Shown here: positions 57,614 through 62,391 of the stretch, in pieces
Layout of the letters: every line of letters starts with the position of its first letter
Numbering within the stretch: the first letter of the stretch is position 1
Assembly: GCA_009739215.1 (NCBI GenBank)
Contig: VSJF01000011.1
Coordinates: forward strand, 992,001-1,056,000
Length of the DNA: 64,000 bases
DNA from: Floccularia luteovirens
Taxonomy: Eukaryota; Basidiomycota; Agaricomycetes; Agaricales; Squamanitaceae
Direction: 5' to 3'
The notes under the pieces: generated by a model
Told to the model about the DNA's origin: nothing
Databases searched by the model: none
Seen by the model: only the letters and a program-made list of their open reading frames with translations
Position numbers and translations under genes: made by a program

Positions 57614-57619
57614 ACCAGC
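57614..57619. repeat. target-site duplication, left copy (ACCAGC)
   Basis: ACCAGC directly abuts the left inverted repeat and is repeated directly after the right one at 62386-62391. This is the direct footprint of staggered-cut integration. Confidence 0.9.
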
Positions 57620-57734
57620 TACGGCTGGCGAGAAGTCTCAGCTTCGTTTTGATGTTGTTACTCACACTTTCCCTTTTCGGGTCACCGTGACACTACCGTG
57701 TGACAACAACTCTGCGCTATCATCGTGGCATCTA
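57620..57734 (+). repeat. left terminal inverted repeat, 115 bp
   Basis: Begins TACGGCTGGCGAGAAGTC and ends CATCGTGGCATCTA. It is identical over all 115 positions to the reverse complement of 62271-62385. It ends nine bases before the transposase ATG, so it probably holds the transposase promoter. Confidence 0.95.
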
Positions 57735-57743
57735 TTCAACACA

Positions 57744-59346
57744 ATGCCCAAATCTTCAGGCAGTAACCAGTGGGGCGAGAAAAACTGTACGTGAAAAGTT
57801 TCCTTATACATGCTATTGTACTTATTATGCAATGTAGACCCTTCCGATGAGGAGCTTCAAGTGGCCTTCAATCAATATGCAAAGGAAAACAATGGCTCCG
57901 GTCTCACTGCAGAACAACAACTTGCAAGATTGGAGCGTGAATTCGGCCTATACATTAAGTTTGTATTCCTGTGCATGGTGTTGCTATTGATGTAAACTTC
58001 TCCCTCAGACGAGCAGGGCTATATCGGTTGCGCAAAAGACTAGGGATAAAAAGCATTCGAAAAAATCAAGAAACATCTTTGCAAGATACCATCCAGTTAG
58101 TTGTTGACATCAAGGCTGATGATACAGCTGGGAAATGGGGTGTTGCACAGGTTCGACAACGCCTTGCGAATACGGGCATCCTGTTGAAGCGGTATGTTAG
58201 TTTGCTACGATGTTTTCATTAAACTTTCTTATATTGTGTTAGCGATGATTTGCGACAGATTCTCCATGACAATTTTGAACCTGAATTCAATCTACGCCTT
58301 TGTTTTTCTAACCGTAACATGATCAAGCGTGTCCCACTCGATTGCCTGGGACCCTGGCATCAGTTGCACTCTGATGGGCATGAGAAGCTTGCAGAACAAG
58401 CACTCCGAATGGGTTATGGTCTCTCACTTCCACTCTATGCATTTAAAGATGAATTCTCATCTTTTGTACCCTATTTGCGCGTTCTTCCTAATGTCCGCAC
58501 ATCAAGAGCTATTGGACATGCTTTTCTAGACTTCGTTGAACTATATAAATGTAAGTACTTTATCTCCAGCTTCTATGATACTTGTTAATATAGTGCAAAT
58601 CAGGTATTCCAATTCAACTTACAACAGATAAAGGTTCTGAAATTTCAGACATGATCCGCTGTCATGAAACACTCCGGTAAGCCAACTTAAATCATTATTT
58701 GTATTTTCACTTTATTAATCGAGAATTTAGGCTTCATGCTGCCCCCGATTTCATGGTTGAAAAATGGCCAACTGCTATTCAAGTTCAAAGCAAACATAAC
58801 ACCCCAATTGAGTCATTTTGGAGGTGGAAACGTCAAGGTGAAGGTCATAGCATCAAGGAAGTGCTCTTCACTGGAAAAGAGGCGGGTATACTCAATCCAA
58901 ATAACTGGTTGCATGTGTATGTTACTATATTCTAGTTTCTTCCGGTTCTTTACTGAGATCTTTTTAGTCAGGTTTTTAAGTGGCTGTGGCCACCTCTCGT
59001 ACAGCAGCGTTTGGATGAATTCCGTGAATATTGGAATAATCATTCTCTGAAGCGGCAAAAAGAGAAATTGTTGCCAAGTGGAATGCCACCTCGCCATGTC
59101 TGGATGGTTCCAGAAAATGCACGCGCTAATGCACGAGACTGTTCAATAACAGTCAGTCTTGATCTTGTTAAACAACTTCGTGAAGAACTAGGTGGTATGG
59201 AAGGTCGTGCTGAAGTACTTAATTTTGTTGATGATGAATTTCGGGCACAAGCAGATAATGCCTTAGCACAGTTGGGATTTCCGATTATCACACTTTTAAA
59301 TGCATGGGATATTTTCGAAGCTATAGTAGAGATTCTATCACTATAA
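57744..59346 (+). CDS. transposase with rve-like DDE integrase core
   Basis: Exons 57744-57786, 57838-57958, 58009-58191, 58243-58550, 58604-58676, 58731-58914 and 58972-59346 join in phase to 428 residues. The N-terminal part (GLYRLRKRLGIKS, then KWGVAQVRQRLAN) looks like helix-turn-helix DNA binding. The core carries the candidate catalytic triad Asp160 (HSDGHEKL), Asp227 (LTTDKGSE) and Glu270 (NTPIESFWRW), with Trp residues after the Glu as in the agaric integrase-core family. The enzyme would cut the inverted repeats and insert the element. It reads rightward from the left repeat. All three acidic residues are present, so activity is plausible. Confidence 0.85.
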
Positions 59347-59479
59347 TAACGTAGTCAGTAGTACATTGAAATATGAAGTTTTTTTGGTGCTTGCATAATC
59401 TATCAAACTCAAACACACATAAAATCTGAATTTTCCATCGGCTGAGACCTTCAGCAGAACTCTTGCCACCTCAACAATC

Positions 59480-61998
59480 ATGTCGCAGTCTCAGAGAAAC
59501 ATTCAACCTTGTGGTGGACCCGATAATGATGCAAATGGATGTGGAACAGTCTTTCCACGTATGCAAATGGATGCAATCCTCTGTCAGCTTTGTAAAAAGC
59601 TGAATAAGAATAGCATTACTGATGCTGAGATTGCTTTTATCAAGGTTCGCACTCTGTCACCTGTCCATTTACTATGTTGAGCTCACAAATGGAATCTAAA
59701 GGAAAAATTCAAACAATGTTTCGAATGTGGGCTTAGTGGAACCAATGTTAGCAACCCTTGTGGAACCTGTAAAAGACTTGGTACGTACTATTCAATTATG
59801 ATATTTGCATCAGGCTCAGATGTAATCAACTATTTATAATATTAGCACATCAAGAGAATGGCGTAATAGACGAACCTACTTTAGCAGGGCAAACTCGCCG
59901 AAAAGAACTTTTGGACTGCCGTTTGAACCGGCAAGTTGGCCCAGCAACACCAGCCACAGAGCTTGAGAGCCTGCGAGGGCGAAATATATCAGCACCTACA
60001 TTTGCAGTTGGCTATGAATGTCGAAGAAGTAATGCACCAAATTCAGTTGATCGGATTCTAGGAAAATGCTGCCAGCCATTTGCTGAGTCTATGACACTCT
60101 TAGGCAAGTTCAAGTTCTACAATTTAGTATATAAATGATCAACTTACTTCTTATCTGCAGAACTGAAAGAATATATTGTGCGAAGCATTAATCCACGATG
60201 GACTGAAACTCATGCTGCAGACTTGAAACCGTATGTCAAAACCATCCAATTTTATAATTTCAAATCTCACTTTTCACATAAAATAGAAGTGAGACTGAAC
60301 TGCGCATGTGCAAAAATCTAGCCTTGCCACTTGGGGATGAAACTCTAACATTGCGTCAGTTTTACAATAAGTATAATCAACATGGATTACGGGACATGTA
60401 CCTTGTTCCTCCCTCAGGAATGTCAAAGGGAAACCGAGGATCATCATTTTCAGTTGAGCTATTTATCCATGTGGACCGGGTAAGCATATTTCACTTCTAA
60501 GTTTCAGGAATATAAGTTTAATATTATTGAACCGAAGTTTATGCAAAGAACTGGCGAAGGGGAAGATGATGAGTCATCCATGCTAGAATCAACTATGAGT
60601 ATCAGTAATAGTAACGGAAAACGCAAGCGTCAAGTAACCTCTTCTAAACGTGGGACCCGAACATCAATGTCAGGTAAAGGTGGCCGAAGCAGTAACAAAC
60701 GATTTTGCAGCAGTAAGTTTATGAGTTGTGACTGCATTGCCTATATACTCATTCCGACATTAATCTCTAAATAGATAGAGAGAACTTCACACCACTTACA
60801 AGTACTTTTGAGCGAGATAGAGGATTGGAATCTATAGCTGTGACGCAACCACAGCCTCAAGATCTGAAATTGGTGAAATTCACACGTCTCTCATGTGAAA
60901 TCAACCATACCAATGGCACACCTATCTTTTCGGATGCATCTACAGTAGAATATGGGTATATTGACCAGATACCCATAGTTCTGTCATCTTCGGATCGCGG
61001 AAAGACAAAAGATGTGTTTGCAGTCAGTGTTACTGTTATATAATCACAACGTTACTCACCCAGAGACATAGTTTGTAATGGATGACAAATCCTATGTTGC
61101 GAAGAAACTAGTCAACATTGGAAAGGGACAAGGCATTGGGATTACACTTAAAGCCTCCTTTGAATGCCTCAAGAATGACCTAATCCGTCTGAAGCGAATG
61201 GAATACTTCTCTACTTTATTTACTAAAAAAGCAGAGGTTAAAGGTGTAGAGATAGCAGGTAAGCTTTACATTATGTTTCCTGTATCGTTATCATTAACTC
61301 CATAATTTTCTTCTAGACTTCCAAATCTCTGATGGATTCATCATAAAAGTTCTTGATGAACCCGAGGCTGCTGCTGTTAATGATGAAGAAGTGAGGGATG
61401 CCAATCCTTGCAATTCTGAAGATGAATTGGAGGCACCAGTCAGCATAGCAACACGACGCAAACACGATGAATTACATAACGTTACTGCAGTTTATCTTGT
61501 TGAACCTCGTCGTCTCTCATCTGCTGTCAACAAATACTCTGGAACTTTTGGAATGCGAAATTGTTCAGATAAACTGGGCGCAACTATAATGGCATTTAGC
61601 CATTTTGTCATTGAAAGTTCAGCTTGTGAATACATGTTTGCAGATATTCAAGGTAATTTCGGTACTAGTAGTGCAATTTAGGTCATACTAAAAAGATTTA
61701 TTAGGCTCATTGGACCGTAATCCTAATGGTAGTCATGAGACTATCATGACACTTTTTGATCCAATGACACATACACCACTTGGGTAAGCGATTGATACTT
61801 TCTACTGAGTTAACTTGCTAATCAAACTTGTTATGACCTAGTAAATCTGGTCTTGGTGACCATGGACTAGCAGGATTCAGAGATTTCATTGAACAACACA
61901 AATGTTCAGCAGTCTGCAGTAAACTCCGCCATTACTCATTAAATGAAATCAATAAACAACTCGAAAAACTTGACAACGACATAAACAACACTGCCTAG
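59480..61998 (+). CDS. cysteine-rich protein with C-terminal alpha-kinase (MHCK/EF2K) domain
   Basis: About 11 exons, starting at 59480 and ending with TAG at 61996-61998, give about 650 residues. The N-terminus (residues 1-85) has CxxC pairs (LCQLCKK, QCFECGLS, PCGTCKRL) that suggest one or two zinc ribbons. A basic Ser/Lys/Arg-rich stretch follows (GKRKRQVTSSKRGTRTS), a likely nuclear signal. The last third matches the alpha-kinase fold: SYVAKKL with the candidate ATP lysine, FSHFVIESS, the catalytic ADIQG, FDPMTHT, then GLGDHGLAGFRDF and the zinc-binding HKCSAVC. These atypical Ser/Thr kinases include myosin heavy chain kinase and eEF2 kinase. The gene lies wholly between the inverted repeats, so it moves with the transposase. 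Its targets are unknown. Confidence 0.85.
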
Positions 61999-62270
61999 AT
62001 GTCACATTTTCCACACACATATCCTCAGCACTTTCGCACTGCTATGTCAGTGTGTTTTCTATTGCTATACGCTCATTTTCTGCTCATAGTTTAGTTTTTT
62101 CGTACAGTATTCCGTACAGTATTCTACTTTTTACATCATTTAGTTCCTTGATTTGACAAAAAATTCTGAATTCTCTATACTACCCATTTGATATGTCCCC
62201 TACTATTACTTTATCCTAACATATCATGAAATCTAATGTTTTCATCGCTACCGCGCAAAGAATTGGGCAT
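61999..62270. other. subterminal region of the transposon
   Basis: AT-rich 3' flank of the kinase gene inside the element, with T-rich runs suited to polyadenylation. Just inside the right repeat the minus strand reads AATGCCCAATTCTT, resembling the region around the transposase start codon at the left end. Confidence 0.6.
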
Positions 62271-62385
62271 TAGATGCCACGATGATAGCGCAGAGTTGTT
62301 GTCACACGGTAGTGTCACGGTGACCCGAAAAGGGAAAGTGTGAGTAACAACATCAAAACGAAGCTGAGACTTCTCGCCAGCCGTA
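62271..62385 (-). repeat. right terminal inverted repeat, 115 bp
   Basis: Reverse complement of 57620-57734 without mismatch. It ends in GCCAGCCGTA, directly before the right copy of the target-site duplication. Confidence 0.95.
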
Positions 62386-62391
62386 ACCAGC
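62386..62391. repeat. target-site duplication, right copy (ACCAGC)
   Basis: ACCAGC immediately follows the right inverted repeat, matching 57614-57619. Confidence 0.9.

Follow-up and report, generated by a model that had tools for sequence, protein, structure and literature searches.

The closest described systems to the element reported here are the IS3EU DNA transposons of rust fungi, for which the available text of Kojima 2025 (PMC12730594) gives 6-bp target-site duplications and TAYGG..CCRTA ends. In all the TET-carrying IS3EU families in that text, a TET/JBP gene lies between the transposase and an alpha-kinase gene, with those two genes opposite in orientation, and the TET/JBP proteins of transposons are proposed to counter silencing. 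A second source, in the part available, ascribes TA..TA ends and usually 6-bp duplications to IS3EU and places GingerRoot in one lineage with it (PMC10045372). Here we describe a complete transposon, apparently of the IS3EU type, from the mushroom Floccularia luteovirens, found in a 64,000-nucleotide stretch of contig VSJF01000011.1 (positions 992,001 to 1,056,000; hereafter the window), in which an integrase-type transposase gene is paired with an alpha-kinase gene. We put the probability that this kinase is integral to the transposon, as a partner maintained by selection, at roughly 0.85, because the seven coding elements found with these terminal inverted repeats (TIRs) all hold both genes (7/7: six copies and one diverged element, C19), because purifying selection acts on the kinase (dN/dS 0.175), and because four other mushrooms have the pairing, with matching transposase and kinase trees. 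An earlier sequence-only reading of this locus had likewise taken the kinase to be integral and not a passenger, and on this evidence that view is upheld.

Cut-and-paste transposases are not usually accompanied by a protein kinase, and the sequence-only reading had stated that kinases are not normal components of such elements; this needs qualifying, as alpha-kinase genes in IS3EU, and hence the pairing as such, are already in print (PMC12730594, in its available text). What is new here is the TET-free, co-oriented two-gene form, together with evidence that selection has conserved the kinase as a partner; neither the co-oriented two-gene form, nor selection on the kinase, nor co-divergence was found in searches of the open-licence literature. 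Among the papers listed by those searches, PMC12730594 was the only one found to describe an alpha-kinase within a transposon. GingerRoot, IS481EU and Ginger resemble the present element in having a retroviral-integrase-like DDE transposase. IS481EU makes duplications of lengths other than 6 bp. The word "kinase" does not occur in the main text of PMC10045372. KDZ, Plavaka and the other fungal TET/JBP transposons in the available text of PMC12730594 are also DNA transposons with an enzyme gene thought to aid persistence, but the accessory enzyme is other than an alpha-kinase and the transposon lineages are different ones.

Features of the element, in window coordinates, are as follows, with both gene models built from reading frames and splice sites (DNA sequence alone, not RNA).

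57614-57619, no strand: left target-site duplication, ACCAGC (flanking sequence)
57620-62385, plus strand (both genes): complete DNA transposon, 4766 bp (TIRs, target-site duplication and two genes)
57620-57734, plus strand: left TIR, 115 bp, starting TACGG (12 full-length genome matches)
57744-59346, plus strand: transposase gene, 428 amino acids, 7 exons (reading frames and splice sites)
57744-57786, 57838-57958, 58009-58191, 58243-58550, 58604-58676, 58731-58914, 58972-59346, plus strand: transposase exons (gene model)
59347-59479, no strand: spacer between the transposase and alpha-kinase genes, 133 bp (gene models)
59480-61998, plus strand: alpha-kinase gene, 648 amino acids, 11 exons (reading frames and splice sites)
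59480-59644, 59702-59780, 59846-60103, 60161-60230, 60287-60479, 60538-60712, 60775-61022, plus strand: alpha-kinase exons 1-7 (gene model)
61072-61258, 61317-61652, 61705-61783, 61842-61998, plus strand: alpha-kinase exons 8-11 (gene model)
59480-59780, plus strand: kinase exons 1-2, N-terminal module with eight conserved Cys (11, 21, 35, 38, 61, 64, 75, 78) (alignment)
61072-61998, plus strand: kinase exons 8-11, most of the alpha-kinase domain, from K407 to zinc ligands H616, C618 and C622 (Pfam and alignment)
62271-62385, minus strand: right TIR, 115 bp, ending CCGTA (complementary to the left TIR)
62386-62391, no strand: right target-site duplication, ACCAGC (flanking sequence)

The perfect 115-bp inverted repeats, the ACCAGC on both sides and the two spliced, intact, same-strand genes had all been pointed out before, and each proved correct: the arms are complementary at 115/115 positions, the duplications flank them directly, and both genes splice without stops. 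Introns in the two genes measure 49-65 bp, and one has a GC donor (GCAAGT; 60104-60160 in the kinase gene), where the C19 copy has GT. Rfam families had no match in the window.

Several features together fit an assignment to IS3EU. Duplications of 6 bp flank all six copies described below (6/6) as well as a gene-less relative on C14 (GACGTC on both sides), and the termini, TACGG..CCGTA with TIRs of 115 bp (about 60 bp in C19), agree with the TAYGG..CCRTA ends and TIRs longer than 30 bp given for the TET-carrying rust families, and with the TA..TA ends of IS3EU in general. The transposase matches the Pfam rva_4 integrase core (E 1.7e-10), with a DDE triad of D160, D227 and E270 at the positions given in the sequence-only reading, and the matching residues are invariant in 45/45 aligned relatives. 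No HHCC zinc module precedes this rve-type core, the first Cys being residue 136 and the sole His before residue 150 being 124. A comparison of a Protein Data Bank (PDB) chain set with the integrase profile by sequence found nothing, but fold comparison matched the structure model of a relative (P0006) to retroviral integrase and IstA cores. From the ends, the duplication and the shared kinase, we infer that Pfam rva_4 corresponds to IS3EU. An exon-by-exon search of the mushroom's own genome for PF24764 (rva_4) returned no matches despite the transposase being present and, having no positive control, is uninformative; the integrase alignment found no relative among viral contigs. With the families in the available text of Kojima 2025 the element thus shares 6-bp duplications, TIRs above 30 bp with TAYGG..CCRTA ends, and a transposase plus an alpha-kinase. 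It differs from the TET-carrying families of that text in having no TET/JBP gene, the 133-bp spacer leaving no room for a third gene of that kind, and in having its genes co-oriented (on the same strand in the window element, in C19 and in an older pair, C22), and its nearest protein relatives lie in Agaricomycetes. A search of the genome for PF12851 (Tet_JBP) gave no matches, likewise without a positive control.

To follow the element through the genome, as the sequence-only reading had suggested, we searched with the 115-bp TIR and obtained at least 14 matches in the 27.0-Mb assembly. Twelve of these, at 99-100% identity, make up six complete elements, namely the window element (C3), three on C16 and two on C1, each of which holds both genes and is flanked by its own perfect 6-bp duplication (ACCAGC, ATAACA, AGTTTC, ATCGTC, TATGTT and CAGGAC). 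The other two matches belong to the gene-less relative on C14 and to one end of the diverged C19 element. Five of the copies are young, differing pairwise by 2-7 substitutions per 4766 bases, and the sixth, L027, differs from the others by 18-22. Near-identity of this degree is what segmental duplications or assembly repeats would also produce; the shared sequence, however, ends exactly at the TIRs and the six flanks differ, each with its own duplication, so that this explanation is ruled out and we give it practically no weight. Both genes are open in four of the six copies (the window element, L023, L025 and L026), and the transposon has been active recently, probably as an autonomous two-gene cut-and-paste element. 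With six copies, four of them open in both genes, and a kinase that is selected and co-inherited, the role of the kinase is directly testable.

Outside these copies, evidence on selection comes from the C19 element (L028), which is 74% identical in DNA to the window element; when the exon borders of the window genes are transferred to it, both genes are open and the splice sites are kept. Using the Nei-Gojobori method with 200 bootstraps, we obtained a dN of 0.074 and a dS of 0.973 for the transposase (ratio 0.076, 0.052-0.102), and a dN of 0.160 and a dS of 0.913 for the kinase (ratio 0.175, 0.130-0.226). The low ratio implies that the kinase is selected as a protein, and the near-equal dS of the two genes fits their joint inheritance. 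Constraint on the kinase extends over the cysteine module (0.121), residues 84-256 (0.114), the linker (0.232) and the catalytic residues 511-625 (0.089). On C22 lies a much older, decayed pair in which the integrase has 23% identity and a kinase fragment lies downstream on the same strand and in the same order; TIRs bounding this relic were sought and not found. Across the genome, integrase and alpha-kinase sequences each occur at nine places, with an adjacent kinase at 8/9 of the former and an adjacent integrase at 8/9 of the latter. A host-type kinase is ruled out by this distribution.

The association extends to other fungi. A database search with the kinase returned five proteins, and a profile search returned the same five; with the integrase, 170 proteins were returned and 120 of them listed. 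Four of the five kinases have an integrase neighbour, as judged from locus tags and matching contig sizes, not from DNA: Hohenbuehelia grisea (HGRIS_006717/006718), Jaapia argillacea (193673/193672), Amanita muscaria (JOM56_004467/004470) and Hygrophoropsis aurantiaca (both proteins on a contig sized 8052). The fifth, P0005 from Mycena sp. CBHHK59/15, has no integrase neighbour among the matches listed; it keeps the eight-Cys module, and its active site is degenerate (D568 to Q, D589 to N), which would make it a likely pseudokinase. Whether the two proteins co-diverge, a check proposed earlier, can be read from the six available pairs: transposase and kinase trees have one topology, with all three internal branches at 100%, and the two sets of distances correlate (r 0.71, a value reached by 7/720 permutations). 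The data show that the two genes are mobilised jointly, and that selection has kept the kinase as a protein while it diverged in step with the transposase. A one-off capture of the kinase is ruled out by the six copies, the C19 and C22 pairs, the four other species, the selection and the matching trees.

Some observations pull the other way and have to be set against a partnership of this kind. The kinase gene is broken in two of the six copies: L024 has a frameshift in it (and a stop in the transposase), and in L027 the transposase is open and the kinase is interrupted by 381 extra bases. The kinase evolves at about twice the rate of the transposase, and its acidic insert (residues 477-510) is weakly constrained, with a dN/dS of 0.63. 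Integrase-only copies or a kinase tree that departs from the integrase tree, as signs of a one-off capture, and a lone copy with a host-type kinase had been named beforehand as refuting outcomes; none of them appeared, although two unpaired decayed fragments do exist, an integrase fragment with stops at C2:16465-16818 (no kinase within the 18 kb examined) and a kinase fragment at C2:820034-820333 (no integrase within the 19.8 kb examined), the second of which looks similar to the C22 kinase on visual comparison. Of the six kinase sequences behind the pair trees, three are truncated models, the P0022 transposase model looks partly mispredicted, and with six pairs the match between the trees may in part be host phylogeny. 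Finally, of the 111 integrases placed in a midpoint-rooted tree, 105 are without a kinase among the matches listed (8 in the clade of 14 that contains all six paired integrases, support 0.989, and 97 outside it), and the kinase may be optional in other elements; the kinase search, which was capped, reaches close relatives only, and the unmatched integrases may reflect that reach. Such absences, and the faster evolution of the kinase, are what one would expect of a passenger, captured once and carried along, possibly with some use to the host and no part in transposition. We consider this improbable, as a function kept over a long time is favoured by the purifying selection, the equal dS, the presence of the pair in four further species, the C22 pair and the rust families.

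Integral partnership leaves room for more than one origin of the pairing. Different IS3EU branches may each have acquired a kinase on their own, the co-oriented pairs here and the opposite pairs in rusts being independent. This would agree with the different orientation in Kojima's families, as far as the available text describes them, and with the confinement of the paired integrases to one clade of 14; however, the C22 integrase, which falls on a long branch in a different major group, shares the co-oriented layout, and we regard repeated capture as possible and rather doubtful. About as tentative is the broader proposal that in a whole fungal branch of IS3EU the kinase is an ancestral working part of the transposition machinery, using ATP alongside an integrase-type transposase, and that such transposons are where the alpha-kinase expansions in rusts and mushrooms mainly come from. 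In the parts of the sources available, rust fungi are said to have a highly expanded alpha-kinase family, which Microbotryomycetes lack (PMC4469406), the family is among the enriched families in wheat rusts (PMC5295586), and one rust alpha-kinase is among candidate effectors (PMC4150398). The pairing offers an explanation for this puzzle and, if many of these alpha-kinases are indeed transposon genes, such family counts need re-reading; in the present genome, the sequence-only suggestion that transposition could account for alpha-kinase multiplication holds, with eight of the nine alpha-kinase places lying in such pairs.

As for what the kinase does, its predicted protein carries the Cys pairs and alpha-kinase domain claimed for it earlier, in the form of the eight-Cys module and a match to Pfam Alpha_kinase PF02816 (E 4.7e-22; 79.4 bits against a family cut-off of 21.3). 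It shares with myosin heavy chain kinase A, ALPK1, eEF2K and TRPM7 a core of DIQG, FDPMTHT, GLGDHG and H-x-C-x3-C, but differs from them in its eight-Cys N-terminal module, basic linker and acidic insert and in being encoded in a transposon. The catalytic Lys K407 is present, as are D568, D589, H554, H616, C618 and C622; the roles of the catalytic Lys, the two Asp and the zinc ligands we take to be those in TRPM7 and MHCK-A. All six paired kinases retain the catalytic Lys, the two Asp and the zinc ligands wherever the region is present. A structure model of a kinase relative (P0002) was too poor to draw on (mean pLDDT 41, from five sequences). In the mechanism we propose, the DDE transposase would bind the TACGG..CCGTA ends, excise the element and insert it with a 6-bp staggered cut, as family knowledge suggests, and the kinase would be an active nuclear enzyme held near DNA or chromatin by its eight-Cys module, where it would aid transposition through phosphorylation of the transposase itself or of host proteins of chromatin, repair or the cell cycle. 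Such a role as a nuclear helper of transposition has, in our estimate, a little under an even chance.

A different task for the kinase is suggested by the oldest copy, L027 (C1:21614-26760). Compared with the sequence shared by most of the five young copies, it has 17 changes, all G:C to A:T and 13 at CpG, hitting 13/266 CpG positions and 4/1644 other C/G positions (Fisher P 8e-9), which suggests that the transposon is a target of CpG methylation and deamination. The kinase might then be an anti-silencing factor that phosphorylates host silencing or methylation proteins and keeps the element expressed, in a role like that of TET/JBP, which adjoins the alpha-kinase in rust IS3EU families and is proposed to counter silencing (PMC12730594, in the text available). 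The CpG changes, however, show at most methylation of the element, and the rust families hold TET and kinase both, so the kinase need not share the task of TET; we think this role unlikely on balance, without dismissing it. The 381-base excess in the kinase gene of L027 is a 376-bp solo long terminal repeat (LTR) plus its 5-bp duplication (AGTAT); it sits in exon 5, near window-equivalent position 60368, and has TGTTG..CAACA ends, and a 150-base probe from it has at least 41 genome matches including itself.

The ends of the elements show some further details. Each 115-bp TIR of the window element contains a palindrome, GTCAC-C-GTGAC (57681-57691 and 62314-62324), which may be a binding site. 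In C19, TCTGGA stands on both sides of the element with five extra bases at one end, TACGA, lying between the duplication and the left TIR (L028, about 2254-2290) as if the terminal bases had been doubled. The gene-less relative on C14 (L029 5786-5947; C14:1679785-1679946), of about 162 bp, has the same ends and resembles a miniature inverted-repeat transposable element (MITE).

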